DNA of 64,000 nt from a bacterium. Lineage in GTDB: Bacteria; Sysuimicrobiota; Sysuimicrobiia; Sysuimicrobiales; Segetimicrobiaceae. The notes below the pieces were generated by a model. It saw nothing but the letters and a program-made list of their open reading frames with translations. It was not told where the DNA came from and searched no databases. Positions 22,770 through 43,900 of the stretch are shown here, piece after piece (position 1 is the stretch's first letter; every line of letters begins with the position of its first letter). Made by a program: the position numbers and the translations under genes. The stretch covers positions 1-64,000 of the forward strand of contig DATGFS010000038.1 of NCBI GenBank assembly GCA_035308905.1, in the 5' to 3' direction.

Positions 22770-22823
22770 CGAGTCCCCCTTGTGAATCTGTCTCATCCGT
22801 TCAAGGGTAGATTAGCGGGCGTG

Positions 22824-24125: not shown

Positions 24126-25523
24126 TCATTCCTGGGCGCGCGGCAGCACCAGCGTGAAACGGGTGCCCTGCCCTTCCACGCTCTGCACCTCGACCTCGCC
24201 TCCGTGCGAGGTGGCGATGTGCTTGACGATACTGAGGCCCAGGCCGGTGCCGCCGAGCGCCCGCGACCGAGACCGGTCCACGCGATAAAATCGCTCAAAG
24301 ATCCGGGGAAGGTGTTCCGGCGAGATTCCAATCCCCGTGTCCGCCACGGAAATCGTGACGGTACTTTCCCGGCGCCCCGCCTCCACAATGACCGTTCCGC
24401 CGTCGAGCGTATACTTGATCGCGTTGTCCACGAGATTCGCGACCGCCTGTGTGATACGGGTGCGGTCGGCCCACGCCCGCGGCAGCCCGGGCGCGCCGTC
24501 GCCGCGCAGCGCGATCCGCCGGCGTTCCGCCATGGGCCTGAACTTTGTGATCACGTCGTCGACGACGTCGTCGAGGGCGACGGGCTCCATCTCCAGTTTG
24601 GCGCTGCCGCTCTCGATCGCCGACAGATCCAAGAGATCGTTGACGAGGAGGGTCAGGCGGTCGATCTCCGCGACGATCCGCTCGAAGAACCGGGGCCCGG
24701 CCTCACGATCCTGCGCCGCTCCTCCGGCCAGCGCTTCGGCGAGCGCCCGCACAGACGCGAGCGGCGTGCGCAGCTCGTGCGAGACATTCGCGACGAACTC
24801 ACGGCGCACAATGTCGGTGCGGCGCTGCTCGGTGACGTCCTGCGCGACGACGACCACGCCCAGGAACTCGCCCCGCGGCCCCCTCACCGGGTTCGCCTGA
24901 ACGCGCAGCAGCCGCCGCTCGGGATGGTGCAGCTCGATCTCGCGGGTGCAGGGCCGGCGCTCCCGCTCGGCCTGCCGGACGAGGGCGTCCAGCTCGAAAT
25001 GGCGGAACACCTCGATCAGGGGGTGCCCGATCACGAAGGGCGCCACGATGCCGAAGAACCGCTCCGCCGCGGGGTTCACCAGCGTCAGCGCGCCTCGGCC
25101 GTCGAGCACCAGCAGCGCGTCGCTCATGTGGGCCAGCACGGACTCGAGCGTGGACTTCCGGAACTCGAGGGCGGCGATGATATGGCTGGTTTCCAGGACC
25201 ATGGCGTTGAAGGCGGCGACGGCTTCGTGCACCTCGTAGAACGACGTGCCGCGCGGCGGCTCGTGCGCCGGACGAAGGCGGCCCTCGATGCCGGACCACG
25301 CCGCGGCGGCGAGATCGCGGAGCGGCCGGCTCAGCGCGGCGGCGAACCGTGCGGCGACGAGCGTCGCCGCGGCGGCGGCGACGAGCGCCGTGCCGAGCAG
25401 AGGAGTCAAGACGTCGGGGAAGTGCCGCGGCCATCCCGCGGCGGCGAACAACACCGCGGCGCTGAGCGCGACGAGTGCCGCGTAGAGGACCAGCGCCGCC
25501 ATCACCGCGCGGTGGAGGCGCAT
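24126..25523 (-). CDS. phoR: Phosphate-type sensor histidine kinase PhoR
   Basis: 465 residues. Two transmembrane helices (about 7-29 and 40-62) have almost no outside loop between them, followed by a HAMP-like linker and a PAS domain (about 120-235). The HisKA domain has the phospho-accepting His249 in FVANVSHELRTPL. The ATPase domain has NLVDNAIKYT, DTGIGIS and GGTGLGLSIVKHI. The missing extracellular domain fits PhoR proteins that sense through PstSCAB/PhoU rather than binding phosphate. It sits one base from the response-regulator gene, and the pst operon is two genes away. Confidence 0.92.
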   Translation of the reverse strand: MRLHRAVMAALVLYAALVALSAAVLFAAAGWPRHFPDVLTPLLGTALVAAAAATLVAARFAAALSRPLRDLAAAAWSGIEGRLRPAHEPPRGTSFYEVHEAVAAFNAMVLETSHIIAALEFRKSTLESVLAHMSDALLVLDGRGALTLVNPAAERFFGIVAPFVIGHPLIEVFRHFELDALVRQAERERRPCTREIELHHPERRLLRVQANPVRGPRGEFLGVVVVAQDVTEQRRTDIVRREFVANVSHELRTPLASVRALAEALAGGAAQDREAGPRFFERIVAEIDRLTLLVNDLLDLSAIESGSAKLEMEPVALDDVVDDVITKFRPMAERRRIALRGDGAPGLPRAWADRTRITQAVANLVDNAIKYTLDGGTVIVEAGRRESTVTISVADTGIGISPEHLPRIFERFYRVDRSRSRALGGTGLGLSIVKHIATSHGGEVEVQSVEGQGTRFTLVLPRAQE

Positions 25524-25524
25524 C

Positions 25525-26274
25525 TTACGTTCCGAGCTTGTAGCCTACACCCCGGACCGTTTCGATGGTGGTCTCCGAGCCGGCTTCCTGCAGCTTCTGC
25601 CGGAGCCACCGGACGTGGACGTCGACCGTCCGGTCGTCGCCGGTGAAATCGTAGCCCCACACGTGCTGCAGCAGCGCCGCCCGCGTGAGGACGCGTCCGG
25701 GATTGGCGAGGAACGCGCGCAGCAAATCGAATTGCCGAGGCGGCAGCGTCATCGCCTGCCCGCGAACCGTCACCTCGTGCCGCGCAACGTCCATCGCCAC
25801 CTCGCCGACGGACAGCAGCTCTTCGCGCTCGCGCACCCCGCGCGCGGCCGACTGGGCGCGTCGCAGCGCCGCGCGCACGCGCGCCAGCACCTCGCGAAGG
25901 CTGAACGGCTTCGTGATGTAGTCGTCGGCGCCGAGATCGAGGCCGACCACGCGATCCGGTTCGTCGCCGCGCGCAGTCAGCATGAGGATCGGCACCGTGG
26001 ACTCCTGGCGGAGCACACGGCAGATCTCGAAGCCGCTCATTCCCGGCAGCATGATGTCGAGCAGCACGAGGTCCGGCGCCACGCGGCGGGCCAGCTCAAG
26101 CGCCTCGCCGCCCTCGCCGGCCTCGAGGACGTCGTAGCCTTCTTTTTCCAACGCATAGCGGAGGGATTCCACGATCGCGCGCTCGTCGTCGACGAGAAGA
26201 ATTCTCGGCTTCTGACTCCGGCGGGAGCCTGCATCATCCGCCTTGCGCGCGTCGTGAGCGTCGTGCGTCAGCAT
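25525..26274 (-). CDS. phoB: OmpR/PhoB-family response regulator, probably PhoB/PhoP
   Basis: About 249 residues. Receiver domain: acidic pocket Asp29-Asp30, phospho-acceptor Asp73 in LLDIMLPGMSG, switch Thr in LMLTARG, and Lys in YITKPFSLRE. The winged-helix DNA-binding domain ends with VHVRWLRQKLQEAG and ETVRGVGYKL, the OmpR/PhoB pattern. It would be phosphorylated by the adjacent kinase and bind the 11-bp-periodic boxes found at pstS and next to its own gene. I take the ATG at 26274; the ATG at 26295 lacks any ribosome site and precedes the receiver by an atypically long tail. Confidence 0.9.
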   Translation of the reverse strand: MLTHDAHDARKADDAGSRRSQKPRILLVDDERAIVESLRYALEKEGYDVLEAGEGGEALELARRVAPDLVLLDIMLPGMSGFEICRVLRQESTVPILMLTARGDEPDRVVGLDLGADDYITKPFSLREVLARVRAALRRAQSAARGVREREELLSVGEVAMDVARHEVTVRGQAMTLPPRQFDLLRAFLANPGRVLTRAALLQHVWGYDFTGDDRTVDVHVRWLRQKLQEAGSETTIETVRGVGYKLGT

Positions 26275-26378
26275 CGCTTGACACGAGCATAACATGGAAC
26301 CGGGTCAGCGTCACGCAATCTCTGCCGCGCACGCGCCGCGAAAGTATCGGCGAAGTTTTTGGCGGCCTCGCGCGGATG

Positions 26379-29432: not shown

Positions 29433-29567
29433 GGCCTGCACTTGGCGGCGCGGCACGGCGGGTCCTGTCGTCGTCGGCCGCCCGGCGCCGGAGTGCTCTC
29501 CGGCATGACCGTCTCGACGCGGCGCAGAAGTATGTGCCTCGCGGCCAACGTGTCCGGGGGTGGAGAG

Positions 29568-30935
29568 ATGAGCGATCTTGCGCGACTGGGGTCCGAAGGG
29601 GACCTCAACCTCTCGCCGCGGCGCGCGCGGTGGCAGGCCGAACACCTGGACGCCGAGACGCGCGCGCTGCTCGCGGAAGACGCGCGGTACTTTCTGCACC
29701 AAGCCCTCTCCACGCCGTGCCTCAACGCGCTGCGCGGCTGCGGCGGCGCGTCGATCGAAGACCTGCAGGGCCGCCGGTACCTCGACTTTCACGGCAACTA
29801 CGTGCACCAGGTCGGCTTCGCCAACCCCGCCGTCATCGAGGCGATCAAGGCGCAGCTCGACGAGCTGCCGTTCTGCACGCGCCGCTACACCAACCGGACG
29901 GCCGTGGCGCTGGCCCGCCGGCTCGCGGCGCTCGCGCCCGGGGATCTCAACAAGGTGCTCTTCTGTCCGGGCGGCACCGGCGCGGTCGGCATGGCGCTCA
30001 AGCTCGCCCGCGCGGCGACGGGCCGGCACAAAACGATCTCGATGTGGGAATCGTTTCACGGCGCCTCCCTCGACACGATCTCCATCGGCGGCGAGCGCAT
30101 CTTCCGTGAAGGCGCCGGGCCGCTGCTGCCCGGCGCCGAACACGTCCCGCCCCCCGATCCCTACCGCTGCGTGTGGGACTGCCACGCCCGCGGGGGCTGC
30201 GATCTCAAGTGCGCCGCGTACATCGAGTACGTGCTCGAGCGGGAAGGCGACGTCGCGGCGGTGGTCGCGGAGACGGTGCGCGCGACGCCCGTCGTGCCGC
30301 ACCCGGAGTTCTGGCGCACGGTCCGCCGGGCGTGCGACCGGCACGGCACGCTCCTGATCCTCGACGAGATCCCGACGGCGCTCGGCCGGACCGGCACGAT
30401 GTTCGCGTGCGAGCAGTTCGGCGTGGTGCCGGACATGCTCGTCATCGGCAAGGGCCTCGGCGGCGGAATCTTGCCGCTCGCGGCGCTGATCGCCCGGGAG
30501 GACCTCGACGTCGCCGCCGACCGGGCGCTCGGCCACTACACACACGAGAAGAATCCGGTCGCCTGCGCCGCCGGCCTGGCAACGCTCGATTATATTGAAG
30601 AGCACGGCCTGCTCGCGCGCTCGCGCGAGCTCGGCGGCTACCTGCTCGGCCGGCTCGAGGCGATGAAGGCCCGGCACCCGCTGATCGGCGACGTGCGGGG
30701 GATCGGGCTGCTCGCCGGCGTCGAGCTCGTCGCCGACCGCGCCTCGCGGACGCCCGCGGCGGACGCCGCCGACGCGGTCATGTACGCGGCGCTCGCACGG
30801 GGCCTCAGCTTCAAGCTTACGGGAGGCAACGTTATCCTGCTGGCGCCCCCGCTCACGGTAACCAAGGAGGAGTTGGACCGCGCGGTGGCAATCCTCGATG
30901 AGAGCCTCTCGGACGTAGAACGTCAACGACGCTGA
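29568..30935 (+). CDS. Class III PLP enzyme resembling (R)-1-hydroxy-2-aminoethylphosphonate ammonia-lyase
   Basis: 455 residues, fold-type I. The PLP lysine is Lys295 in VIGKGLGGGILP, with Asp266 in LILDEIPTALGRTG. The stretches LHQALSTPCLNALRG, LDELPFCTRRYTN and GHYTHEKNPVACAAGLAT are, to my memory, typical of proteins annotated as PbfA, which releases ammonia from hydroxylated aminoethylphosphonate to give phosphonoacetaldehyde. An ordinary aminotransferase remains possible. A cysteine cluster, Cys201, Cys205, Cys211 and Cys215, sits in an insert before the active-site domain. GGTGGAGAG precedes the ATG at 29568. The phosphonoacetate hydrolase 9 kb away supports a phosphonate role. Confidence 0.72.
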   Translation: MSDLARLGSEGDLNLSPRRARWQAEHLDAETRALLAEDARYFLHQALSTPCLNALRGCGGASIEDLQGRRYLDFHGNYVHQVGFANPAVIEAIKAQLDELPFCTRRYTNRTAVALARRLAALAPGDLNKVLFCPGGTGAVGMALKLARAATGRHKTISMWESFHGASLDTISIGGERIFREGAGPLLPGAEHVPPPDPYRCVWDCHARGGCDLKCAAYIEYVLEREGDVAAVVAETVRATPVVPHPEFWRTVRRACDRHGTLLILDEIPTALGRTGTMFACEQFGVVPDMLVIGKGLGGGILPLAALIAREDLDVAADRALGHYTHEKNPVACAAGLATLDYIEEHGLLARSRELGGYLLGRLEAMKARHPLIGDVRGIGLLAGVELVADRASRTPAADAADAVMYAALARGLSFKLTGGNVILLAPPLTVTKEELDRAVAILDESLSDVERQRR

Positions 30936-32498: not shown

Positions 32499-33269
32499 CT
32501 AGGGGTGTCCGCTTTCGTACAGCCAGCGCGCGACGAGAGCCTCTGTGTCGCCGCCGAACGACTCGCGCGATCCCTCCGAGAGCACGGTCCCGGTCCGCAT
32601 CACGTAGACATAGTCCGCGATCTCGAGCGCCCGCTTGATGTTCTGGTCCACCAGGAGCACGGCCTTGCCCTGCGCGGCGAGCTCTTTGATGAAGCGGTAG
32701 ATCTGCGTCGCCACGCGCGGCTCGATGCCGGCGGTGGGCTCGTCGATGAGGAACACGGCCGGATCGTGCATGAGGCTGCGCGCGATCTCGAGCTGACGCT
32801 GCTGGCCGCCGCTCAGCGTGCCGGCCGGCTGGCGCCGCTTCTCGGCGAGGATGGCAAACTGCTCCAGGGCGCGCTCGACAAGCGCGTCGACGCGGGCGCG
32901 ATGCCGCTTGAGCCGCCACGCGCCCAGGCGCAGATTCCACTCGACGGTCAGGTGGGGGAAGATGCTCGGCCGCTGCGGCAGATAGGCGATGCCGTGGTCG
33001 CCCATCTGGTGGGGCGCGACACCCCGGATCGAGCGGCCGTCCAGGGTGACTTGGCCTTCCATGGGCGGCAGAAATCCGAACAACACTTTGAGCAGCGTCG
33101 ACTTCCCGGTGCCGTTTGGACCGAGGACGCACCGGACATGGCCGCGCGGCGCCTCGACCGACACGCCGCGCAGGATGTTGATCCCGGGCAGGTAGCCCGC
33201 CACGAGATCGCGCGCGGCGAGACAGTGTGCCGTGGCAGCGGCCGCCGGGACGGCCGGCCCGTTCGTCAT
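32499..33269 (-). CDS. Branched-chain amino acid-type ABC transporter ATPase, LivF
   Basis: 256 residues. Walker A GPNGTGKST, signature LSGGQQRQLEIARSL, Walker B VFLIDEPTAGIEP. The IAYLPQRPSIFPHLTVEWNL segment identifies the LivF branch. It energises the LivHM importer with LivG. Its ATG overlaps the livG stop as ATGA. The cargo of Liv-type systems ranges from branched-chain amino acids to amides, urea and other organic acids, so cargo is not assigned. Confidence 0.92.
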   Translation of the reverse strand: MTNGPAVPAAAATAHCLAARDLVAGYLPGINILRGVSVEAPRGHVRCVLGPNGTGKSTLLKVLFGFLPPMEGQVTLDGRSIRGVAPHQMGDHGIAYLPQRPSIFPHLTVEWNLRLGAWRLKRHRARVDALVERALEQFAILAEKRRQPAGTLSGGQQRQLEIARSLMHDPAVFLIDEPTAGIEPRVATQIYRFIKELAAQGKAVLLVDQNIKRALEIADYVYVMRTGTVLSEGSRESFGGDTEALVARWLYESGHP

Positions 33270-34039
33270 TCCAGTCCCGAGTACGCGGCTAGCACGGTCT
33301 GGTCCGCCCGTACGACGGCCGGGAGGCCGTCCGCGATCTTGCGCCCCCGAGCCATGACGACCAGCCGGCGCGCGATGCGAAGAATCGATTCCATGTCGTG
33401 ATCCACGACGACGAACGTCCGGCCGGACTGGTGGAGCTCCTGAATCCGCTTGATCAACTCATCCCGCAGGCGCGGATGGACGCCGGCGAACGGCTCGTCG
33501 AGGAACAGGACGGCGGGCTCCAGCATGAGCGCGCGCCCGAGCTCCAGGAGCTTCTGCTGGCCGCCGGAAAGGTTCTTCGCGTCGAGCCCTTCGAGGTGAA
33601 TGAGGTTGAGAAAGCTCAGGTACTTCCGTGCCTGCCGCACGGCGGAGTCCCGGGCGGACCCCGGCCGGGTCAGGCCCGGGACGAGCATGTTCTCGAGGAC
33701 GGTCATCCGGCCGAACAACTGCGTCAGCTGAAAGGTTCGCGCCACGCCGCGCGCGGCGAACTCGTGCGCCGGACGCGACGTCATGCGGTGGCCGCGCACC
33801 ACGACATGGCCGGACTCCGGACTCAGGTGCCCCGTCAGCACGTTGATGAGCGTCGTCTTGCCGGAGCCGTTGGGCCCGATTAGCCCGATCAGGTCGCCCG
33901 CCGCGACCGAGAAGTCGACGCCGTCGACCGCGGCGATGCCGCCGAAGTGCTTCGCGAGCCCGGCGCCCTCGATCAACACGCCGTTCGGCGACGCCTGCGC
34001 ATCCCGCAGGCCCGTTCCCGCGGAGGGGCCCGCCGTCAT
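33266..34039 (-). CDS. Branched-chain amino acid-type ABC transporter ATPase, LivG
   Basis: 257 residues. Walker A GPNGSGKTT, the LivG-specific FQLTQLFGRMTVLENMLVPG, signature LSGGQQKLLELGRALML, Walker B VLFLDEPFAGVHP, and HDMESILRIARR. The ATG at 34039 overlaps the livM stop as ATGA. The first 22 residues are extra to the family core. Confidence 0.92.
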   Translation of the reverse strand: MTAGPSAGTGLRDAQASPNGVLIEGAGLAKHFGGIAAVDGVDFSVAAGDLIGLIGPNGSGKTTLINVLTGHLSPESGHVVVRGHRMTSRPAHEFAARGVARTFQLTQLFGRMTVLENMLVPGLTRPGSARDSAVRQARKYLSFLNLIHLEGLDAKNLSGGQQKLLELGRALMLEPAVLFLDEPFAGVHPRLRDELIKRIQELHQSGRTFVVVDHDMESILRIARRLVVMARGRKIADGLPAVVRADQTVLAAYSGLE

Positions 34040-35022
34040 TCGCCGGACCCGCCCTGTCCGACTTCGCCGACCACGGACTCCGCGGCGGCCACGGGCCGCC
34101 GGACCTCGCCGAGGCGCATGAACTGCTGCCACAGCGGGGTCAAGAGACCGTTCCTGGCAAAGCGCATTGTCAGGAGCAGTACGATGCCGAAGATCTCCAG
34201 CCGCCAGATCCCGAACCGCCGCAGATACTCCTCGAGGAACTCCACGCCGATGGCCCCGCCGACGGCCGTCGGAATGCGCTCCATGCCTCCGATGACGGCC
34301 ATCACGACGATGAGGGCCATCCGATCGAGATCCCCCAGGTCCGGGGTCAGCACGGGGATGTAGTGCGCGAAGAAGGTGCCGGCCAGTCCGGCAAACGCGC
34401 TCGCGACCGCGAAGACCAGAATGCGGAAACGCGCGACCGCCACGCCCGACGCCGCCGCGGCCTGTTCGTCCTCGCGGATCGCTCTGAGAAACAACCCCCA
34501 GCGCGAGTGCACCAGGAGCCCCATGAGGGCGAGCGACCCGGCAAGCAGGCCGAAGACCGTGTAGAAGTACGGCAGCCTCGACGCCGTGTTGAACAGCGGC
34601 ACGGTGTGCAGGCCGGTCATGCCGCGCGTGACCTGGTCCTCGGTCGACACCGTGATCCGGACGATCTCCGAGAACGCGAGCGTAAAGATCGCGAGATACG
34701 GGCCGGTGAGCCGGAGGCAGACCGCGCCGATGCCCGCCCCGACGAGGCCGCAGAGGACCACGCCCGTCGCCATCCCGAGCGGCACCGGAATCCCCGACCA
34801 CTGCACCAGGAGGGCCGACGAATAGGCGCCCACCGATGCGAACGCCACGTGGCCGAGCGAGAACAAGCCGGCGTAGCCTGCCAACAGCGACCAGCTCGCC
34901 GTCAAGATCGCGTAGAACATGGCGATGATGAGGATGTGCATCCAGTAGGAGTTGAGGAGATGGCCGTAGCCGAGCAGCAGCGCCCCGGCGGCAAAAAGCA
35001 GAACGGCGGGCAGGCCGCGCAC
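34036..35022 (-). CDS. Branched-chain amino acid-type ABC transporter permease, LivM
   Basis: 328 residues with eight to nine helices. The segments LLAGYAGLFSLGHVAFASVGAYSSALL and LRLTGPYLAIFTLAFSEIVRI are characteristic, as is the EAA loop around IREDEQAAAASGVAVARFR. It pairs with LivH. I favour the GTG at 35022, 5 bases after the livH stop; a TTG at 35055 would overlap livH by 29 bases. The last 30 residues form a charged, glycine-rich tail. Confidence 0.9.
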   Translation of the reverse strand: MRGLPAVLLFAAGALLLGYGHLLNSYWMHILIIAMFYAILTASWSLLAGYAGLFSLGHVAFASVGAYSSALLVQWSGIPVPLGMATGVVLCGLVGAGIGAVCLRLTGPYLAIFTLAFSEIVRITVSTEDQVTRGMTGLHTVPLFNTASRLPYFYTVFGLLAGSLALMGLLVHSRWGLFLRAIREDEQAAAASGVAVARFRILVFAVASAFAGLAGTFFAHYIPVLTPDLGDLDRMALIVVMAVIGGMERIPTAVGGAIGVEFLEEYLRRFGIWRLEIFGIVLLLTMRFARNGLLTPLWQQFMRLGEVRRPVAAAESVVGEVGQGGSGE

Positions 35023-35026
35023 CGGC

Positions 35027-35926
35027 CTAGTCCATGCGGAGGTGGCGCCGGCCAAAGAACCCCGTCGGCCGGAACATCAGCACCACCATCAGCACGAACA
35101 CGGAGAACGCGTTGGAGTACGACAGCGCGCGCGTGACGTCGGGCAGGAACGCCGTAAACAGCGCCTGGGCTTCGCCGAGCGTGATGCCGGCGAGCACGCT
35201 GCCGGCGACCGACCCCATGCCGCCGAGGATCACGATCACGTACGACTGGACGTTGGGCAGGACGCCCATGTCCGGCGACAGCGAGAAGATGGGGCCGATC
35301 AGCGCCCCCGCGGCGGCGGCGAGCGCCGCGCCGACCGCGTACGCCAGCGTGTTGAACCGGTGCGGGTTGATGCCGACGATCGAGGCCGAGTCGCGCGACT
35401 GGCTGACCGCGTCAAGGGCCTGCCCCCAGATCGTACCGTTCATGAAGTAGAGGAGCGCGAAGATCAGCAGCAGGCCGACGACGCCGGCGACCAGCCGGTC
35501 ATTCGTCACGACGAGGGCGCCGATCCGGTGAACACCGGCCACAAACGACGGCGGCCGGAGGGGGAACACGCCGAAGGCGATGATCGCCGCGTTGCGCAGG
35601 AAGAACGCCAGGCCGAACGTGACGAGGATGCCGTACTCGTCCTTGCGCTCCGTTCGCTCGCTGTACAACGGGGTCAGCAGCAGCCGCTCCAGCACGACGC
35701 CCAGGGTGAAGATGGCCGCCATCGCGATGAACATGGCGGCGAACGGCGGGACGCCCGCCAGGGTGATCGCGTAGTACGCCGTATAGCCGCCCAGCATGTA
35801 GAGATCGCCGTGTGCGAAGTTGACGATCTTCAGGATGGAAAAGATCAGCGTAACGCCGACGGCCACCAGCGCGTAGATGATGCCGATGACGAGACCGTTG
35901 GTAGCCTGGATCAGAAAATAATCCAT
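35027..35926 (-). CDS. Branched-chain amino acid-type ABC transporter permease, LivH
   Basis: 299 residues with about eight helices. It begins with the family pattern NGLVIGIIYALVAVGVTLIFSILKIVNFAHGDLYMLGGY. The later VSQSRDSASIVGINPHRFNTLAYAVGAALAAAAGAL loop and VIVILGGMGSVAGSVLAG are also diagnostic. It forms the membrane channel with LivM. It is the first gene after the SBP and terminator-like hairpin. Confidence 0.93.
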   Translation of the reverse strand: MDYFLIQATNGLVIGIIYALVAVGVTLIFSILKIVNFAHGDLYMLGGYTAYYAITLAGVPPFAAMFIAMAAIFTLGVVLERLLLTPLYSERTERKDEYGILVTFGLAFFLRNAAIIAFGVFPLRPPSFVAGVHRIGALVVTNDRLVAGVVGLLLIFALLYFMNGTIWGQALDAVSQSRDSASIVGINPHRFNTLAYAVGAALAAAAGALIGPIFSLSPDMGVLPNVQSYVIVILGGMGSVAGSVLAGITLGEAQALFTAFLPDVTRALSYSNAFSVFVLMVVLMFRPTGFFGRRHLRMD

Positions 35927-36052: not shown

Positions 36053-37300
36053 TCACTGCGCCGGCTTCTTGTAGGTGTACGGCACGGTCGCGAGGCTCCG
36101 CGGCCAGATCACCGGGGCGTCCTCGGGCTTCTGTCCGACCTTGTCGTACTGAAGCAGGTAGAGCGGCGCGTCGACGTACTGGTGATAGGCCCAGTCCGGG
36201 CTGTGGCTGGTCGAGAACGCGTAGGCGCCGCGCGTGCCGCTCCACTTCGACGTCTCGAGCGCGTGGATAATCGCCTTGGGATCGGTGCTGCCGGCGCGCT
36301 TGATCGCATCGACCACGATGTACGCCGCATCATAGCTCTCCATGGATTGCGGCGTGGTCCCGGACTTGAAGCGGGCTTCGAACGCGGCCACGAACGCCTT
36401 GGTCTTGGCGTTCCACTTGGCCTTCGGCAGGCCGGGGTTCTCGGTGATCAGGCCGACGCCGGCCTCCCTTACGTTCTTCCAGAAGGCCTCGGTGGTCGCC
36501 GGGCCGCCGGAGTTGTATGTGCCGGTGTGCGCGCTCGGGGCGAGCCCGAGGCTCTTCGCCTGGTTCACCACCGCGAACGCGCCCGCGTCCTCGCTGATCG
36601 CGACGGCGAGAAAATCATAAGGCGGATTGTGCGCCAGGATGCGCTGCAGCTGTGCCGTGAACTCCGTCTGGTTAAGGTCCGCACCGACGACATCGTAGTG
36701 GATCCCGTGCTTCTTGAAATTCTCGACCAGCACGTCGCGGTGGCCCTCGCCGCCGTCCGTCTTCTCGTACAGCAAGAGGACGTTCTTGAACCCCGCGGCG
36801 GCGATCCAGTCGCCGTAGCGGTTCGCGATGATCGCCTGGCACGGCGCGACCCGGAAGACCTCGGGGTAGCCCTTGGCCGTGATCTTGTTGGCCCAGACGT
36901 CGACCGCGACGATCGGCGTGCCGGTCTTGTGCGCGACCTCCATCTCGGCAAGGAACACACCGCTGTGGAACTCGCCGAAGATGGCGGCGACGTGCTCCTG
37001 CGCCGTCAGCCGCTCGGCGCCCGCGGTGCCCTCTTCCGGCTTCCCGCGAGTGTCGGCCTCAACGATCTTGATCGGCCGGCCGAGTACTCCACCGGCCTTG
37101 TTGATCTCGTCTTGGGCCATCAGCGCCGCGTCCAACATCAGCTTGCCGTCCTCGTAGCCTCCGGGCGGCGACAGCGGTCCGACTTCCCCGATCTTGATCG
37201 GCTCAGCCGCGCTCCAGCTCATCTGGATCGGCACGAGCAAGAGTCCTGCCAGTGCCAGCACGGCGAGACCGGTAAACGCCCCACGTCTCGAGATCCTCAT
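36053..37300 (-). CDS. Liv-type ABC transporter substrate-binding protein
   Basis: 415 residues, periplasmic-binding fold type I (LivJ/LivK/AmiC). An N-terminal signal (MRISRRGAF then hydrophobic core to about residue 28) precedes a mature protein with IKIGEVGPLSPPGGYEDG, AQDEINKAGGVLGRPIKIVEADTRG and the VAAIFGEFHSG ligand-pocket region. It has an arginine pair after MRIS that is Tat-like but weak. The ATG at 37300 has a GGGGGG run 8-9 bases upstream. The neighbouring aminotransferase and phnA suggest the cargo may be an amino compound or aminophosphonate, not necessarily a branched-chain amino acid; that is inference. Confidence 0.88.
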   Translation of the reverse strand: MRISRRGAFTGLAVLALAGLLLVPIQMSWSAAEPIKIGEVGPLSPPGGYEDGKLMLDAALMAQDEINKAGGVLGRPIKIVEADTRGKPEEGTAGAERLTAQEHVAAIFGEFHSGVFLAEMEVAHKTGTPIVAVDVWANKITAKGYPEVFRVAPCQAIIANRYGDWIAAAGFKNVLLLYEKTDGGEGHRDVLVENFKKHGIHYDVVGADLNQTEFTAQLQRILAHNPPYDFLAVAISEDAGAFAVVNQAKSLGLAPSAHTGTYNSGGPATTEAFWKNVREAGVGLITENPGLPKAKWNAKTKAFVAAFEARFKSGTTPQSMESYDAAYIVVDAIKRAGSTDPKAIIHALETSKWSGTRGAYAFSTSHSPDWAYHQYVDAPLYLLQYDKVGQKPEDAPVIWPRSLATVPYTYKKPAQ

Positions 37301-37391: not shown

Positions 37392-38735
37392 TTATGCACC
37401 GATGTCCGTCAGCGCGCCGTCGATCGCCTGCACGCCGGCTTCGATTTCCTCTTCGGAGACCACCAGCGGCGGCGCCGCGAGGAACACGTTGTAGCGGCCC
37501 ATGATATTGGCGCCGCGCTTGCGGGCCGCGGCCACGAGCGACTTCATCGGGCTGGGCCCCGCGCCGCGCTTGGCGAACGGCTCGAGCGGCTCCTTGGAGG
37601 CGCGGTCCTTGACCAGCTCGAGCCCCCAGAACAGGCCCAGGCCGCGCACGTCGCCGACCTTCGGGTGCCGCTCCGCCATCTTGCGCAGCTTCGGACCGAG
37701 TACTTCGCCCATCCGGCGCGCCCGCTCCACCAAGCGCTCCTCTTCGAACACCTCGAGGTTGGCGATGCCGGCCGCGCACGCGAGCGGGTGGCCCGAGTAG
37801 GTCAGGCCGGCCCACAGCACATGGTCGTCGAAGTGGCGCGAGACCTTTTCGTTCACCAGCACGCCGCCGAGCGGCACGTACCCGGAGGTGACGCCCTTCG
37901 CGAACGAGATCATGTCCGGCAGCGCGTGCCAGTGCTCGCACGCGAACCACTCGCCGGTCCGGCCGAATCCCGTCATCACCTCGTCGAAAATCAGCGCGAT
38001 GCCGTAGCGGTCGCAGATCTCCCGCACGCCTTTGAGGTAGCCCTCCGGGTAGATCACGAGACCGCTGCCGCCGATCATCGCCTCGATCAAGATCGCGGCA
38101 AAGCTGTCCGGCCCTTCGTACATCAGCACCGTCTCGAGGTGTTCGAGCGCCGCGGCCGTCTCGCGCTCCGCCGGCACCGCAAACGGGCTCCGGTAGGGGT
38201 AGGGCGTGAGGAAGCGCGTCACGCCGGGGATGCCCGGCTCGACCGGCCACCGCCGCGGGTCGCCGCTCAGCGTGATGGCGCCGTAGGTCGCGCCGTGATA
38301 GCCGCGGTAGGAGACGAGCACCTTCTGGCGCCCGGTGTACATCCGCGCCATCTTGACGGCGTTCTCGTTGGCGTCGGCGCCGCCGTTCGTGAAGAAGACC
38401 TTGGGATACGCCTGGTTGGGGGCGATGCGCGACAGCTTCTCGGCGAGGCGTGCGCGCGGCTCCGTCGAGAAGCTGGGATTGACGAACGTGAGACGCTCGG
38501 CCTGCCGCTGGATGCCCGCGATGATCTTGGGGTGACTGTGCCCCGCGTTGACGTTGATCAGGCCGGAGCAGAAGTCGAGGATCCGCTCGCCGTCCGCGGT
38601 GTAGAGATAGCACCCCTTCGCGTGGTCGATGGCAAGAGGTCCCGGCCCGCTCTGCGCCTCCCACGGGATCAAGACGTGCTCTCTGGTCAGCTGTGCGGTT
38701 GCCTGCGTCGCAGGCGTAGTCTTGGTGACCGCCAT
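37392..38735 (-). CDS. Class III aminotransferase (omega-amino acid/taurine:pyruvate type)
   Basis: 447 residues, PLP fold-type I. Asp251 in LIFDEVMTGFGRTG contacts the pyridine nitrogen and Lys280 in SFAKGVTSGYVPLGG is the Schiff-base lysine. Family segments FTNGGADANENAVKMAR and YRGYHGATYGAITLSGD are present. The GGADANE pattern and length place it with omega-amino-acid/taurine-type transaminases that act on amines distant from a carboxylate. It lies between the Liv importer and phnA, so an aminophosphonate such as 2-aminoethylphosphonate is a reasonable candidate substrate (inference). GGGGGAG precedes the ATG at 38735, and Pho-box-like repeats lie about 105-132 bases upstream. Confidence 0.85.
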   Translation of the reverse strand: MAVTKTTPATQATAQLTREHVLIPWEAQSGPGPLAIDHAKGCYLYTADGERILDFCSGLINVNAGHSHPKIIAGIQRQAERLTFVNPSFSTEPRARLAEKLSRIAPNQAYPKVFFTNGGADANENAVKMARMYTGRQKVLVSYRGYHGATYGAITLSGDPRRWPVEPGIPGVTRFLTPYPYRSPFAVPAERETAAALEHLETVLMYEGPDSFAAILIEAMIGGSGLVIYPEGYLKGVREICDRYGIALIFDEVMTGFGRTGEWFACEHWHALPDMISFAKGVTSGYVPLGGVLVNEKVSRHFDDHVLWAGLTYSGHPLACAAGIANLEVFEEERLVERARRMGEVLGPKLRKMAERHPKVGDVRGLGLFWGLELVKDRASKEPLEPFAKRGAGPSPMKSLVAAARKRGANIMGRYNVFLAAPPLVVSEEEIEAGVQAIDGALTDIGA

Positions 38736-38839
38736 GAACTCCCCCCCCCGGGCCGGCCGGAACACGATCGGTCGTCCGATGCGATTGGTCCCCTTTCACC
38801 GCCGCCCGGCGGCCTCCCTGCGGCGGAGGATGATGGTCC

Positions 38840-38867
38840 GGTAACGGACGCGTTAACGTCCCGTGAA
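38840..38867 (-). promoter_or_regulatory. Pho-box-like triple repeat upstream of the class III aminotransferase
   Basis: On the minus strand TTCACG, TTAACG and GTTACC follow one another with 5-base spacers. The first two fit the TTnAyr core seen at pstS; the third is a poor match. It lies 105 bases upstream of the aminotransferase ATG and 20 bases past the phnA stop, in a 151-base gap with no other signal. If real it would place the aminotransferase and perhaps the Liv operon under phosphate control. Confidence 0.45.
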
Positions 38868-38886
38868 AATTCGCGCCGGGCGAACG

Positions 38887-40125
38887 TCAGTGCGTGCCGT
38901 TCAGGACGTACTCGAAGACGTCGAAGTTGCGCAGCGACGCGCGCGCCCGATCCGCATACTCGGCAGACAGGCGCCGCGAGACGAAGAACGGGACCGGCTG
39001 TTCGGCGAGGCTTCCGTGCGAGCGGAGGCGCTCCCCCGCCAGCTGCGAGAGGTCGTGATCGACGGCGCGCGCGCCGATCGCGCGGCCCCGCTCGCCGATG
39101 ACCGCGACGTCGCCCTCGCGATCGAAGGGCAGCTCGAACCTCGCGCAGGCCTCCTCACGAACGAGCGCCAGGCCCACTCCCGGCAGCGACCGCACGTGGC
39201 GCAGCACCGCGTCGCGATCCACGCCGGGCCGCATGAGATGCACGCGCACGAAGCCGCCGAGAGCGCCGTGATGGCGTACGAACGGGTCGGTGATCGGACA
39301 GATGACGCGCGTCGCGCCCTCGCCGAACGTCTCGTCCAGACGGTCGCCGAGGTACAGCACGTTGGGCCGTCCGTCCGGCAGCGCCATGTCGGTCATGCCG
39401 TGATCGGCAACGACCCCCACCGTGGCGTCCAGGGCGGCCAGCACGCCGAGCCGCTCGTCGACCGCGCGCATGAACGCGTTGGCCTCCGGCGTGCCCGGCG
39501 CGTACTTATGCTGGACGAAATCCGACAGCGACAGGTACATGAGGTCCGGCCGGCGCGCCCGCAGCAGCGCGATGCCGGCGTCCAGCACGAACAGGGAGAG
39601 ATCCGCGCTGTACGGGTCCGGCTCCGGCCGGCCGACGAGATCGAGCACCCCGGCGATGCCGTGCTCGGCCTCGGTGGCCGCGGCGGCGTGCTCCGCGGAA
39701 AACGCGATGCCGCGAAGATCCTTGCCGAGCGCCTTGCGGAGCTTGTCCTTGGCGGTCACCGCGATGACCCCGGCGCCGGCCTGGGAGAAGCACGCCAGAA
39801 TCGTCGGGGCGCGCAGCGGCGTCGCGTCCGTCATCATGATCTCGCGGCCGGTGTCACGGTCGAGGTAGTAGTTGCCGGACACGCCGTGGACGGCCGGCGG
39901 CGCCCCGCACACGATCGACACGTTGTTGGGGTTGGTGAACGACGGCATCGCCGCGGCCGCGATCGCCGAGAAGCCGTCCCGCGCCATCCGGTCGAGGAAC
40001 GGAATCACCCCGGCGGCGCGCGCCGCCTCGATGTACGACGGGTCGCAGCCGTCGAAGCAGACGACGACCGCCGGCCGCGCCGGCCAAGACAGCACGCGTC
40101 CGTTGACCTGCACCGGCGTCTTCAC
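38887..40125 (-). CDS. phnA: Phosphonoacetate hydrolase
   Basis: 412 residues, alkaline phosphatase superfamily. It hydrolyses the C-P bond of phosphonoacetate to acetate and phosphate. The metal and nucleophile set is complete: Asp25 (CFDGCDPSYI), nucleophile Thr64 (PSFTNPNNVS), Asp202 and His206 (LSDFVQHKYAPG), Asp241-His242 (VADHGMTDM) and His370 (RSHGSLAEQPVPF). GNYYLDRDTGREIMMTD and ITDPFVRHHGALG are specific to phosphonoacetate hydrolase against other phosphodiesterases. The GTG at 40125 overlaps the upstream PLP-enzyme stop as GTGA and has GGAGG 10 bases before it. The 1226-codon reading to 42567 is antisense to the next genes. Confidence 0.9.
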   Translation of the reverse strand: MKTPVQVNGRVLSWPARPAVVVCFDGCDPSYIEAARAAGVIPFLDRMARDGFSAIAAAAMPSFTNPNNVSIVCGAPPAVHGVSGNYYLDRDTGREIMMTDATPLRAPTILACFSQAGAGVIAVTAKDKLRKALGKDLRGIAFSAEHAAAATEAEHGIAGVLDLVGRPEPDPYSADLSLFVLDAGIALLRARRPDLMYLSLSDFVQHKYAPGTPEANAFMRAVDERLGVLAALDATVGVVADHGMTDMALPDGRPNVLYLGDRLDETFGEGATRVICPITDPFVRHHGALGGFVRVHLMRPGVDRDAVLRHVRSLPGVGLALVREEACARFELPFDREGDVAVIGERGRAIGARAVDHDLSQLAGERLRSHGSLAEQPVPFFVSRRLSAEYADRARASLRNFDVFEYVLNGTH

Positions 40126-41096
40126 CGCCGCTCGGCCTCCGGCCGCCTGTCCCCCCTCGCGGGGGAAAAGACGTCCGTGCTCAGATAGCGGAGGCCCGAA
40201 TCCACGATGATCGTCGCGACGACGGCGCCCGGGCCGAGCCGCTCCGCGACGCGCAGCGCGGCGACGACGTTGGCGCCCGTGGACGTGCCGGCGAAGATCG
40301 CCTCCTCCCGGGCGAGGCGCCTCGCCATCGCCTTCGCGTCGCCGGTGCTCACCGTCAGCACCTCGTTCACCTCGTCGGGTTTCCACAACGGCGGGATGAA
40401 CCCGATGCCGATCCCTTCGATCTTGTGCGAGCCGGACGGCCGGCCCGACAGAACCGCCGACTCCGCGGGCTCCACCGCGACCACCAGAAGGTCCCGGTTG
40501 TGCCGCCGCAGCGCGGCCGCGGCGCCGTGAATCGAATGCGCCGTGCCGACCGCATGGACGAGCGCGTCCACGCGGCCGCCCGCCTGCCCCCAGAGCTCCT
40601 CGCCGAGCGGATGATAGCCGGCTTCGCCGTCGCGGTTGTTGAGCTGGTCCACCGACCAGTGCCCCGGACGCCGGCTGATCGTCCCGGCCGTCGCGATCAT
40701 GGTCTTGATGAGCGCGGCGTTGATGGCGCCGCGCTCGCTCGGCACATCGGTGAGCTCGGCCCCGTACGCCAGCATCGTGAACCGCTTCTCGTCCGCGAAC
40801 GCGTCCGAGAACACGAAATGGCTCTTGAACCCGAGCGCGGCGCAGACGAAGGCCAGCGAGACGCCCGTCGTCCCGGCAGTGTACTCGACCACAGTCCCGC
40901 CGGGCGGCAGGCGCCCGTCCGCGGCCGCGCGCTCGACCACCGCGCGCGCCATCCGGTCCTTCATGCTGCCGGTCGGATTCGCGGACTCGACCTTCGCGAC
41001 AACGCGCGCCGCCCGGGCGGGCACCACGCGGCGCAACTCCACGAGCGGTGTGTTGCCGATCGCATCGAGCACGCGGTTTCCACGGGCGGTCTCCAT
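40122..41096 (-). CDS. Cysteine synthase-like PLP enzyme (fold-type II) with an altered PLP loop
   Basis: 324 residues. The Schiff-base lysine is Lys46 in NPTGSMKDRMA. The phosphate-binding tail GTAHSIHGAAAAL is a variant of the usual GTGGT loop. The substrate-carboxylate/PLP loop reads TAGTTG (73-78) where true cysteine synthases have TSGNTG: Thr76 replaces the Asn that contacts PLP O3'. This suggests a different beta-replacement or elimination reaction. Its GTGA junction with phnA shows the two are made together, so a phosphono-amino acid or related compound is a candidate substrate (inference). The ATG at 41096 has no strong ribosome site; a TTG at 41111 is possible. Confidence 0.83.
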   Translation of the reverse strand: METARGNRVLDAIGNTPLVELRRVVPARAARVVAKVESANPTGSMKDRMARAVVERAAADGRLPPGGTVVEYTAGTTGVSLAFVCAALGFKSHFVFSDAFADEKRFTMLAYGAELTDVPSERGAINAALIKTMIATAGTISRRPGHWSVDQLNNRDGEAGYHPLGEELWGQAGGRVDALVHAVGTAHSIHGAAAALRRHNRDLLVVAVEPAESAVLSGRPSGSHKIEGIGIGFIPPLWKPDEVNEVLTVSTGDAKAMARRLAREEAIFAGTSTGANVVAALRVAERLGPGAVVATIIVDSGLRYLSTDVFSPARGDRRPEAERR

Positions 41097-41253: not shown

Positions 41254-42636
41254 ATGAGCGGCACCGTGCGCGGCCTCTTGACGCTCGACGAGCTCCGATC
41301 GCTCGTCGCGTCCGGCGAGATCGACACCGTCATCGCCGCGATGGTCGACATGCAGGGCCGGTTGATGGGCAAGCGCGTCACCGGGCGGTTCTTCCTCGAC
41401 CAGGTGGCGGAGAGCGGCGCCCACGCCTGCAGCTACCTCCTCGGCGTGGACGTCGAGATGGAGCCCCTGCCCGGCTACCGGCTCACGAGCTGGGACAGCG
41501 GCTATCACGACCTCCACATGCGGCCCGACTTCGGCACGCTCAGGCGGATCCCGTGGCTCGAGGGCACGGCGCTCGTCCTGTGCGACCTCGCGCACGACGA
41601 CGGCGCGCCTATCGAGGAGTCGCCGCGACAGATCCTTCGCCGGCAGGTCGCACGCGCGCACGAGCGCGGGTATTCGGCGATGGTCGCGTCGGAGCTCGAG
41701 TTCTACATCTTTCGGGAATCCTACGCGAGCGCGCAGCGCAAGCAGTTCGTGAACCTGGAGCCGTACGGCCGGTACATCGAAGACTATCACATCCAGCAGG
41801 GCACCAACGAAGAGTGGCTCATCCGCCAGATCCGGAACGGGCTCGACGCCGCGGGCGTGCCGGTCGAGTTCAGCAAAGGCGAATGGGGTCCGGGGCAGCA
41901 CGAGCTGAACCTCCGGTACGCGGCGCCGGTGGAGATGGCGGACCGGCACACGGTGTTCAAGCACGGCACGAAGGAGATCGCCGCGCTCAACGACGTGGCG
42001 ATCACGTTCATGGCCAAGTGGCGGGCCGACCTCGCCGGCTCCTCGTGCCACCTCCACGCCAGCCTGTGGGACCGCGACGGGCGCCGCAACCTCTTCTGGG
42101 AGGAGGGGGCGCGGCCGCTCGGCATGTCGCCGCTGTTCCGGCACTTCCTCGGCGGGCTCCTCGCCGGGGCGCGTGAGCTGGCGTACTTCTTCGCACCCTA
42201 CATCAACTCGTACAAGCGATACATGGCCGGGACGTTCGCGCCGGTCGCGGCGGTCTGGAGCCACGACAACCGGACCTGCGGCTTCCGTGTCGTGGGCCGC
42301 GGGGACGGCCTCCGCGTCGAGAACCGCATTCCCGGCGCCGACGCGAATCCGTACCTCATGTTCGCGGCGACGCTCGCGGCCGGCCTGTGGGGCATCGAAC
42401 GTCGCATCGAGCCGCCCGAGATGTTCGAAGGCGACGCCTACCGCGCGCCCGATCTGCCGCGCATCCCCCGCACGCTCCGCGACGCGACGGCCGCGCTCGA
42501 GCGAAGCGAAATCGCGCGGGAAGCGTTCGGCGATCGCGTCGTCGACCACTACCTGCACACCGCGCACCTCGAGCAGGAGGCCTATGACCGCGCCGTGACC
42601 ACCTGGGAGCTCGCCCGCAACTTCGAGCGGACCTGA
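41254..42636 (+). CDS. Glutamine synthetase family protein (gamma-glutamyl-amine ligase-like)
   Basis: 460 residues, two-domain GS fold. The catalytic stretch has ASELEFYIFRE (Glu metal ligands), GEWGPGQHELNL and SCHLHASLW (the NxxGxHxH-like His region), with NRTCGFRVVG and RVENRIPGADANPYL. Compared with GlnA the adenylylation and ammonia-site motifs are shifted, as in PuuA/GlnA3/GlnT enzymes that glutamylate amines or polyamines. It could also be a variant glutamine synthetase; the two are not separable by eye. The ATG at 41254 is the first gene of a plus-strand operon (GS-like, SDR, N-acetyltransferase) diverging from the cysteine-synthase-like gene. Confidence 0.87.
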   Translation: MSGTVRGLLTLDELRSLVASGEIDTVIAAMVDMQGRLMGKRVTGRFFLDQVAESGAHACSYLLGVDVEMEPLPGYRLTSWDSGYHDLHMRPDFGTLRRIPWLEGTALVLCDLAHDDGAPIEESPRQILRRQVARAHERGYSAMVASELEFYIFRESYASAQRKQFVNLEPYGRYIEDYHIQQGTNEEWLIRQIRNGLDAAGVPVEFSKGEWGPGQHELNLRYAAPVEMADRHTVFKHGTKEIAALNDVAITFMAKWRADLAGSSCHLHASLWDRDGRRNLFWEEGARPLGMSPLFRHFLGGLLAGARELAYFFAPYINSYKRYMAGTFAPVAAVWSHDNRTCGFRVVGRGDGLRVENRIPGADANPYLMFAATLAAGLWGIERRIEPPEMFEGDAYRAPDLPRIPRTLRDATAALERSEIAREAFGDRVVDHYLHTAHLEQEAYDRAVTTWELARNFERT

Positions 42637-43403
42637 TGCGCCTCGACGGCAAGGTCGCCCTGATCACCGGCGCCGGCAGCGGCATGGGCCGGCTCGCGGC
42701 GCAGGTGTTTTCGCGCGAGGGCGCCCGTGTCGTCCTCGCAGACGTCTCGCAGGACGCGGGGGAAGCGGCCGCATCAGAGGTCGCGCGCGCCGGCGGCGAG
42801 GCCGTGTTCGTGCCGGCCGACGTCGCGCGGGAGCGGGACGTGCAGACGCTGGTCCGCCGGGGCGTCGAAGCCTTCGGGCGCCTCGACGTGCTGTATAACA
42901 ACGCCGGCATCTTTCCGGCCGACGACGGCTCCGTGGTGGACGTCGCCGAAGAGGTTTGGGACCGCGTGATGGCGGTCAACCTCAAGGGCATCTACCTCTG
43001 CTGCAAGCACGCGATCCCGGAGCTGCTGCGCGCCGGGGGCGGCTCGATCGTCAATGTCGCGTCGTTCGTCGCGCTCGTGGGCTGCACCGTGCCGCAGGAC
43101 GCCTACACGGCCAGCAAGGGCGGCGTGATCGCCCTCACCAAGTCGCTCGCCGTGCAGTTCGGCCCGAAGCACATCCGGACCAACGCGATCGCCCCCGGGC
43201 CCATCGAGACGCCGCTGCTCATGTCGTGGCTGCTCACCAACCCCGCCGAAAAGAAGAAGCGTCTCGACCGGATTCCGGCCGGCCGGTTCGGGCGGCCCGA
43301 GGATATCGTCAACATGGCGCTCTATCTGGCGTCGGATGAGGCGGCCTGGGTCAACGGCGCCGTGATGGTCGTCGACGGCGGCATCACGTCCAACTACTTC
43401 TAA
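42636..43403 (+). CDS. Short-chain dehydrogenase/reductase
   Basis: 255 residues, classical SDR. The cofactor motif TGAGSGMG is at 11-18 and NNAG at 88-91. The triad is Ser143, Tyr157 and Lys161 (DAYTASKGG). Asp36 after the second strand (VVLADVS) suggests NAD(H) rather than NADP(H). It ends with VNGAVMVVDGGITSNYF, like 3-oxoacyl-ACP reductase/alcohol dehydrogenase types. Its ATG overlaps the GS-like stop by one base (TGATG). Confidence 0.9.
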   Translation: MRLDGKVALITGAGSGMGRLAAQVFSREGARVVLADVSQDAGEAAASEVARAGGEAVFVPADVARERDVQTLVRRGVEAFGRLDVLYNNAGIFPADDGSVVDVAEEVWDRVMAVNLKGIYLCCKHAIPELLRAGGGSIVNVASFVALVGCTVPQDAYTASKGGVIALTKSLAVQFGPKHIRTNAIAPGPIETPLLMSWLLTNPAEKKKRLDRIPAGRFGRPEDIVNMALYLASDEAAWVNGAVMVVDGGITSNYF

Positions 43404-43405
43404 CC

Positions 43406-43900
43406 ATGCTGCGGACACGCGCCGCCGTCCCGGACGACGCCGAGGCGATCGCGCGCATCTATAATGAAGGCATCGAAGACCGCGTCGCCACCTTCGAGAC
43501 CCGGCCGCGGAGCGCCGAAGATGTGGGCGGCTGGTTCGACGGGGTGCATCCCATCGTCGTCGCCGAGGACGGCGGCCGGGTGCTGGCGTTCGCGTCCACA
43601 TCGACCTACCGGCCGCGGGACTGCTACGCCGGGATCGCGGAGTTCTCGGTCTACGTCGCGCGGGAGGCCCGGGGCCGCGGCGCCGGGCGCGCCGCGATGG
43701 AGGCGCTGATCGCGGCGTCCGAGCGGGCGGGGTTCTGGAAGCTTGTCTCCCGGGTGTTCCCGCAGAACACGGCCAGCCTGCGGCTGCTCAAATCGTTGGG
43801 CTTTCGCGAGGTCGGGTACTACGAGAAGCACGCCAAGCTCGATGGCGCCTGGCTCGACGTGGTGATCGTGGAGAGGCTGCTGCCGGCGAACGTCCGCTGA
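43406..43900 (+). CDS. GNAT N-acetyltransferase of the phosphinothricin/arsinothricin (ArsN1) type
   Basis: 164 residues. The start RAAVPDDAEAIARIYNEGIEDRVATFETRPR and the acetyl-CoA-binding EFSVYVAREARGRGAGRAAMEALI are what I recall for ArsN1/PAT enzymes, which acetylate the amino group of phosphinothricin or arsinothricin. WKLVSRVFPQNTASLRLLKSLGFREVGYYEKHAKLDGAWLDVVIVER closes the fold. It lies 2 bases after the SDR and third in an operon headed by a GS-family gene; GS is the known target of both inhibitors. Methionine-sulfoximine acetyltransferase activity is an alternative. Confidence 0.8.
   Translation: MLRTRAAVPDDAEAIARIYNEGIEDRVATFETRPRSAEDVGGWFDGVHPIVVAEDGGRVLAFASTSTYRPRDCYAGIAEFSVYVAREARGRGAGRAAMEALIAASERAGFWKLVSRVFPQNTASLRLLKSLGFREVGYYEKHAKLDGAWLDVVIVERLLPANVR

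Follow-up and report, generated by a model that had tools for sequence, protein, structure and literature searches.

Among the closest described systems, the PhnWYA (PhnWAY) pathway of 2-aminoethylphosphonate uses one or more PLP enzymes upstream to give phosphonoacetaldehyde and ends with the cleavage of phosphonoacetate by PhnA, an enzyme described in the available part of the source as having a Thr nucleophile, Zn and two Lys residues (PMC10574752). In the PbfA-expanded AEP clusters studied by the Peracchi group, PbfA is added, and the portion of the account at hand reports pbfA-phnY-phnA in Proteobacteria only (PMC12366243). Other clusters carry phnA with neither phnW nor phnY in the stretch, namely that of Pseudomonas fluorescens 23F, to which the accessible text assigns a LysR gene and transporter genes (PMC10574752), and the phnA-phnDEC plasmid cluster of Rhizobium sp. 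007, with a LysR gene and phosphonate-type transporter genes. The window analysed here, a stretch of 64,000 nucleotides from a member of Ca. Sysuimicrobiota (genome G000), very probably holds a gene set for extracting phosphorus from natural phosphonates, in which PhnA is the one bona fide C-P-cleaving enzyme. It shares with PhnWYA the final PhnA step and the upstream PLP enzymes, with the PbfA-expanded clusters a PbfA over the curated cut-off at the locus of PhnA, and with the P. fluorescens and Rhizobium clusters a phnA that stands without phnW or phnY; the Rhizobium sp. 007 PhnA is 68% identical to that of the window. Unlike the PhnWYA organisms, this genome has no PhnW over cut-off and no PhnY, and its operon encodes, in their stead, an aminotransferase of class III and taurine type as well as a Liv-type transporter. 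These two also take the place of the LysR and transporter genes of the Rhizobium cluster and, as far as the source describes it, of the P. fluorescens cluster, whereas the PbfA-expanded clusters differ from the window in their phylum and in having PhnY.

The gene phnA (38887..40125, minus strand; 412 aa) was assigned as phosphonoacetate hydrolase by profile search (587.6 bits with TIGR02335, whose cut-off is 407.55) and by its match to the phosphonoacetate hydrolase in PDB entry 3szy (E 4.3e-124 across 407 residues). The protein retains D25, T64, N67, K126, K128, D202, H206, D241, H242 and H370, of which we take D25, D202, H206, D241, H242 and H370 to be the metal ligands. With a predicted Thr nucleophile at T64, the ligands for two metals and the Lys pair K126/K128 all in place, the model and the residues together predict phosphate release from phosphonoacetate. 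In the same operon, a class-III aminotransferase of the PRK06062/taurine:2-oxoglutarate type (37392..38735, minus strand; 447 aa; PRK06062, 587.1 vs 472) stands at the position expected for PhnW and is a plausible candidate aminophosphonate transaminase. The solved chain nearest to it, 6jix (395.5 bits, colinear, residues 12-444), is a taurine enzyme. Transporter genes follow, all on the minus strand: a periplasmic binding protein of the branched-chain-amino-acid/urea type (36053..37300; PF13458), a LivH-type permease (35027..35926; PF02653), a LivM-type permease (34036..35055; by position and synteny with relatives), a LivG-type ATPase (33266..34042; NF008449, 190 bits, below the cut-off of 362) and a LivF-type ATPase (32499..33269; PF00005 and synteny). 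Divergent from the phnA operon are a glutamine-synthetase-like (GS) gene, perhaps for a gamma-glutamyl-amine synthetase (41254..42636, plus strand; PF00120, below GlnA-type cut-offs), a short-chain dehydrogenase (SDR; 42636..43403, plus strand; PF13561) and a GNAT acetyltransferase of ArsN1 family A, the arsinothricin resistance type (43406..43900, plus strand; NF040503, 223.3 vs 170); the first is kept beside the block in relatives, and the second is also conserved there.

PbfA is encoded beyond the transporter genes (29532..30935, plus strand; model match 29592-30914) and scores 698 against a cut-off of 525 with NF049939; it had been overlooked in the earlier note. Profile search also placed Pst, PhoBR and PhoU genes inside the window, including pstS for a phosphate-binding protein (21681..22796; TIGR00975, 366.9 vs 205) and pstC for a phosphate permease (20696..21673; TIGR02138, 308.7 vs 196.45), both on the minus strand. 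A PhoB-type response regulator (25525..26295, minus strand; TIGR02154, 253.8 vs 296.2) and a PhoR/PnpS-type sensor kinase (24126..25523, minus strand; PnpS 366.8 vs 400, PhoR 305.4 vs 334.2) both remain below cut-off, and in the relative G028 phoU-like, phoB and phoR genes also lie near PbfA. A search for E. coli-type Pho boxes gave one match against 1.82 expected, and neither these nor sigma-70 promoters were found above chance.

Of the known enzymes, PhnY (TIGR03250) and the phosphonatase PhnX (TIGR01422) are over cut-off in none of the 43 genomes, the best values in the window's genome being 393.7 vs 635.65 for PhnY and no match for PhnX, while PhnJ of C-P lyase is absent from this genome and present in one of the 43 (G025). 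For PhnW, the best score in the window's genome (164.7 vs 400.8) belongs to the gene at 58017-59132, which was rejected as PhnW and best fits the pyridoxamine-pyruvate transaminase type, also below cut-off. An aldehyde dehydrogenase 4.2 kb beyond the window end (C38:68234-69613), the source of the PhnY score above, was not accepted as a specific PhnY: it falls below cut-off, and TIGR03250 matches occur in 42 of 43 genomes, many at similar score. It best resembles lactaldehyde dehydrogenase (500.1 vs 650) and is a possible broad-range oxidase. We propose that the substrate would be imported by the Liv-type transporter, as its place in the operon suggests, and that PbfA, as assigned by its curated model, would convert (R)-1-hydroxy-2-aminoethylphosphonate to phosphonoacetaldehyde, a product to which the class-III aminotransferase would probably convert 2-aminoethylphosphonate. 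An aldehyde dehydrogenase encoded elsewhere would then yield phosphonoacetate, which PhnA is predicted to split into acetate and phosphate. The earlier note had given the order and coordinates of the CysK-like, phnA and aminotransferase genes, the complete metal and nucleophile residues of PhnA and the lack of PhnY in the window, all of which agree with our results, both lysines being kept in addition. Its interpretation, a route from aminophosphonate through phosphonoacetate to acetate and phosphate, is partly supported: for phnA, the phosphonate locus and a plausible aminotransferase it has support, for the CysK-like protein it has none.

The same aminotransferase/transporter block occurs with PbfA and without PhnA in Ca. 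Sysuimicrobiota relatives. Homologous blocks in G028, G029 and G032 contain the aminotransferase(s), the binding protein and Liv genes, with GS and SDR in G029 and G032, and in the slot of [CysK]-PhnA the relatives carry a LysR gene, genes for both subunits of a CoA-transferase, one for a protein resembling citryl-CoA lyase, an aldehyde dehydrogenase gene and another aminotransferase gene. In G001 and G004, which are relatives at a greater distance, the module of CoA-transferase, citryl-CoA-lyase-like, aldehyde dehydrogenase and LysR genes accompanies PbfA and PhnW (in G004, 498.2 vs 400.8 and 542.7 vs 296; a copy 73% identical to it in G001), together with 2-aminoethylphosphonate transporter genes over cut-off, PhnS2/T2/U2 in G001 and PhnS2/U2 in G004; wherever hits overlapped in this comparison of clusters, the best of them was kept. 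Since the module that occupies the slot in relatives accompanies PhnW and 2-aminoethylphosphonate transporter genes, the locus is read as phosphonate catabolism in which PhnA stands in place of an undescribed gene module. Both this module and the change of what the slot contains are observed. That aminophosphonates are broken down in the relatives through a CoA-dependent route not described before, PhnA being its non-orthologous replacement at phosphonoacetate in the window's genus, is a tentative and rather doubtful proposal. In such a route, PhnW or the class-III aminotransferases together with PbfA would supply phosphonoacetaldehyde, and the betaine-aldehyde-dehydrogenase-like enzyme would oxidize it to phosphonoacetate. 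As a guess, the two-subunit CoA-transferase might form phosphonoacetyl-CoA, and the citryl-CoA-lyase-like protein, which has NGPG for NVDG/NIDG in 5/5 cases and has thereby lost the catalytic Asp, might break the C-P bond, with an acetyl-CoA enolate as the remainder. A possible but doubtful substitute for PhnA is an alkaline-phosphatase-superfamily ORF in G032 and G028: it has no significant PhnA match (E 0.17), shows by eye no Lys-x-Lys at the PhnA place and did not turn up in the stretches of G001 and G004.

Upstream of phnA lies the gene of a CysK-like fold-type II PLP protein (40122..41096, minus strand; 324 aa), whose stop codon contains the GTG start of phnA (GTGA). The earlier note was right about this overlap, about TAGTTG in place of the TSGNTG substrate loop of cysteine synthase and in doubting O-acetylserine sulfhydrylase activity. 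Compared with cysteine synthase A/B and cystathionine beta-synthase, the protein is alike in fold family, length and Schiff-base lysine motif and differs by TAGTTG, by a phosphate loop of GTAHS where the cysteine synthase chain aligned with it has GTGGT, and by scores below all curated cut-offs (cysKM 273.2 vs 344.15, cysK 261.9 vs 350.95, cysM 218.5 vs 394.2). Its proposed role as a phosphonate enzyme did not survive a family survey, a tree, neighbour clustering and a co-occurrence search, in which support was limited to G000 and its congener G023. Action on a phosphono-amino acid, for instance by beta-elimination or beta-replacement, to feed PhnA is accordingly very unlikely, even though the GTGA overlap is kept in G023, the two copies are sisters with support 100/96 (tree of 85 rows, duplicate loci left out) and their host-like GC3 (0.92-0.94) speaks, as regards composition, against a very recent transfer. 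Against it, TAGTTG occurs in 36 of 80 public relatives (rows of at least 50% identity; two of the 83 rows are the window and one is G023, each with TAGTTG, and these three are excluded from this count), and phnA is in the examined flank of 0/80, among matches of at least 100 bits. No conserved partner was found in 35 chosen loci (32 of the 80, plus L115, L136 and L138), phnA is present in only 4 of the 50 genomes with such a gene that were searched, which correspond to 50 of these 80 loci, and the gene is absent at phnA in G024, G025, G026 and G027; where G024, G031 and G027 have a copy at another place, its GC3 is lower and its ORF start uncertain. The earlier note would have counted the absence of such pairing in every relative as a refutation; one of the two congeners (G023, not G024) does pair the gene with phnA, so the link is not dismissed outright, and the pairing was seen nowhere else. 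Chances are about even that the protein makes or cleaves amino acids, as a synthase or lyase with no part in phosphonate metabolism, sharing a message with phnA by accident of gene order, a reading compatible with the preferred one. The full-length PALP fold, with SMKDR and DQLNN motifs that presumably carry the Schiff-base lysine and a conserved Gln, favours it, and a third copy would not be needed for cysteine because the genome has two other CysK genes, which score 349.6 and 342.2 against a cut-off of 344.15, the second falling just short of it; the two altered binding loops, however, make the cysteine synthase reaction itself doubtful. The CysK-like protein is probably a bystander that comes from a PLP family which is widespread and stands alone; its gene would be co-transcribed and dispensable.

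An unlikely reading, somewhat less so than the phosphono-amino-acid role, assigns the aminotransferase, GS and SDR, together with the Liv transporter, to the breakdown of omega-amines or ethanolamine, with PhnA a separate insertion for phosphonoacetate that is imported or made independently, as in P. fluorescens 23F. In G028, G029 and G032 the block has no PhnA that passes the TIGR02335 cut-off, the taurine enzyme is the nearest solved aminotransferase, and a phnA cluster with regulator and transporters is described in the available part of PMC10574752. In Thermomicrobium roseum GS and SDR adjoin an ethanolamine permease, so that some genes of the block may act on ordinary amines, which also counts against the preferred explanation. 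This reading is opposed by PbfA at the same operon end in G000, G023, G028 and G032 and by G001 and G004, in which the relatives' module lies alongside PhnW and genes for phosphonate transport. As a whole, the locus is best explained, with fair probability, as a phosphonate-utilisation locus adjoining the phosphate regulon, a reading supported because PbfA and pst/phoBR are in the window and PhnW and PhnS2/T2/U2 are in the homologous clusters of relatives. It is weakened by the co-occurrence of PbfA and PhnA in only 2 of 43 genomes, by G024, where PhnA and the aminotransferase are present and PbfA is absent, by the occurrence of the aminotransferase family in clusters without phosphonate genes, by a Liv-type transporter that belongs to none of the known phosphonate types, by the result that E. 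coli-type Pho boxes do not exceed chance, by the lack of a PhnY over cut-off in all 43 genomes and by the absence at the window locus of the relatives' aldehyde dehydrogenase.

With this locus, phosphonate catabolism that relies on PhnA and PbfA would reach into Ca. Sysuimicrobiota, a bacterial phylum that is uncultured; in the window's genus PhnA fills the slot held in relatives by the LysR, CoA-transferase A/B, citryl-CoA-lyase-like, aldehyde dehydrogenase and second aminotransferase genes. We rank higher the question raised by those relatives that have PhnW, PbfA and phosphonate-transporter clusters: because PhnX, PhnA, PhnY and PhnJ are all below cut-off in them, how they cleave the C-P bond becomes a directly testable question with named candidate genes.

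A CysK-like gene (40122-41096), phnA (38887-40125) and an aminotransferase gene (37392-38735) lie in this order on the minus strand of the window, with the first two overlapping at GTGA, as the earlier note had described; the assembly comprises 4.0 Mb in 81 contigs. The identity of phnA is borne out by an equivalog-level match to phosphonoacetate hydrolase (587.6 bits against a cut-off of 407.55). In addition, the protein can be aligned along its length with the phosphonoacetate hydrolase chain 3szy and retains Thr64, Lys126/Lys128 and the residues that we take to be metal ligands. According to the literature, the enzyme relies on zinc, a nucleophilic Thr and two leaving-group lysines (PMC10574752). 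On a plasmid of Rhizobium sp. 007 (L174, 87433-106653), a PhnA 68% identical to that of the window is accompanied by LysR, a second alkaline-phosphatase-family gene, phnDEC and an amidase, and the substrate there is perhaps an amide of phosphonoacetate. In another genome of the phylum, G025, phnA resides in a C-P lyase region (L117, contig C59), and the same contig carries PhnM, PhnJ and 2-aminoethylphosphonate-type transporter genes. The window also encodes a HemL-like class-III aminotransferase (147-1640), a 36% relative of which (L117:3262-4620) is a phnA neighbour in G025 and G026.

Membership of the CysK-like enzyme in the phosphonate pathway, the most novel claim of the earlier reading, is unsupported. 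The protein scores below every curated cysteine-synthase cut-off and presents TAGTTG, as well as GTAHS where an aligned cysteine synthase has the PLP-phosphate loop GTGGT, neither of which is peculiar to phnA. TAGTTG is found in 36 of 80 public relatives, which are distributed across many phyla, and TGGSTG in most others. None of the 80 has phnA beside the CysK-like gene in the flanking stretch examined (3.1-21.0 kb), and phnA occurs anywhere in the genome in 4/50 searched genomes with a CysK-like gene. Neighbour clustering of 35 loci yielded no conserved partner; the recurrent clusters are the CysK-like gene itself, similarly placed ORFs on it, an ABC ATPase family (10/35) and an SDR family (4/35). 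Within the genus, G023 shares the cysK-phnA-aminotransferase order and the GTGA overlap with the window's genome (G000), and their cysK-like copies are sisters (support 100/96). In G024, phnA and the aminotransferase gene adjoin the GS gene with no cysK at that site; its cysK-like copy is located on another contig and groups with those of other genera. We therefore conclude that the pairing is older than the G000/G023 split but does not extend beyond the genus, and we regard a function of the CysK-like protein in phosphonate metabolism as improbable. Titles and abstract openings of the open-access papers retrieved contained no description of phnA with a CysK-like partner.

A gene overlooked in the earlier note encodes PbfA (29532-30935; 698 bits against a cut-off of 525). 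It is convergent with the aminotransferase-transporter operon, and a redoxin and an EamA gene separate it from the operon's end. PbfA is reported to convert (R)-1-hydroxy-2-aminoethylphosphonate to phosphonoacetaldehyde (PMC8154272; PMC12366243). Between 18.3 and 28.7 kb, the window further carries pstS, pstC, phoU, a phoU-like gene of the DUF47 family and a gene pair of the phoR/phoB type; phoU-like, phoB and phoR genes likewise lie a few kb from pbfA in a relative, G028. A class-V aminotransferase at 58017-59132 reaches none of the cut-offs and is intermediate between the models for PhnW/AepZ and for pyridoxamine-pyruvate transaminase. Among 43 genomes from the phylum, PbfA exceeds its cut-off in nine, PhnA in six, PhnJ in one (G025), and PhnX and PhnY in none; PbfA and PhnA occur together only in G000 and G023, and PhnA, PhnX and PhnJ all stay below cut-off in seven of the nine PbfA genomes. 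Because 121 of 145 phnA genes in two alphaproteobacterial orders cluster with phnY, according to PMC12366243, phnA without phnY represents a minority but known state.

In G032, another member of the phylum, a matching block is present, with GS, SDR and acetyltransferase genes on one side, the aminotransferase (~70% identity), binding protein and Liv genes on the other, PbfA at the far end and no PhnA. Its slot between GS and aminotransferase holds a LysR, two CoA-transferase subunits, a citryl-CoA-lyase-like protein, an aldehyde dehydrogenase and a second aminotransferase; the closest model to this LysR is the aminoethylphosphonate-associated one (226.5, below its cut-off of 341.1). G028 and G029 present variants of this arrangement, without an aldehyde dehydrogenase in the stretch examined of G029. 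G001 and G004, of family f2, combine PhnW (over cut-off in G004, 73% identical in G001) with PhnS2/PhnT2/PhnU2 transporter genes (in G001, each of the three subunits exceeds its cut-off, as do PhnS2 and PhnU2, the two tested, in G004), followed by aldehyde dehydrogenase, citryl-CoA-lyase-like and CoA-transferase genes, with LysR and PbfA in the opposite direction. The module, with an NGPG citryl-CoA-lyase-like protein and usually a BADH-like aldehyde dehydrogenase, is conserved at five loci, accompanied by PhnW/PhnS2T2U2/PbfA or by class-III aminotransferases and Liv genes, and PhnX, PhnA, PhnY and PhnJ are below cut-off in these genomes. A 4-kb contig of G006 contains PbfA, LysR and part of a CoA-transferase gene, and a PbfA contig of G033 ends in a LivF fragment. 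In G028 (L224:6576-7658) and G032 (L195:3466-4554), the aminotransferase-Liv operon includes or ends with a gene for an alkaline-phosphatase-superfamily protein that shows no clear PhnA kinship. In the window, an ArsN1 family A acetyltransferase gene (arsinothricin resistance type; 43406-43900) directly follows the glutamine-synthetase-like and SDR genes. On a Thermomicrobium roseum plasmid (L199), such a pair adjoins an ethanolamine permease, which suggests that the GS-SDR pair may serve to gamma-glutamylate ethanolamine. GlnA4 is a gamma-glutamylethanolamide synthetase (PMC6529630).

Since the module travels both with PhnW and phosphonate-transporter genes and with the window-type block, the latter is most simply read as a phosphonate-catabolic unit. 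In it, the role of PhnW would fall to the class-III aminotransferases of taurine type, for which 6jix is the nearest solved structure. The citryl-CoA-lyase-like protein carries NGPG in all five cluster members, where citryl-CoA lyase 6hxp has NVDG and two plasmid relatives have NIDG; the Asp of NVDG/NIDG is a catalytic acid/base of the citryl-CoA lyase superfamily. As a hypothesis, a cleavage of phosphonoacetate through activation with CoA would make chemical sense. Caution is advised, because citryl-CoA-lyase-like genes also lie with a CoA-transferase gene, in one case also with an aldehyde dehydrogenase gene, on plasmids that have no phosphonate genes in the stretch examined. Phosphonoacetyl-CoA was found in a single open-access article, where an enzyme of flavophos biosynthesis is predicted to form it (PMC12871164); PbfA or PhnW with CoA-transferase and citryl-CoA-lyase-like genes was not described in titles or abstract openings of the papers retrieved.

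The genus of the window lacks the module in this slot and has [CysK]-PhnA there instead; the aldehyde dehydrogenase loci of G000 with which the G032 enzyme was compared revealed no orthologue of it (best 33-39% identity). As phosphonoacetate is the substrate of PhnA, it may be the intermediate common to PhnA and the module. The core of the earlier interpretation, phosphonate degradation through phosphonoacetate, stands without its CysK-like step. Of greater interest as a lead is the different module that occupies this slot in relatives.
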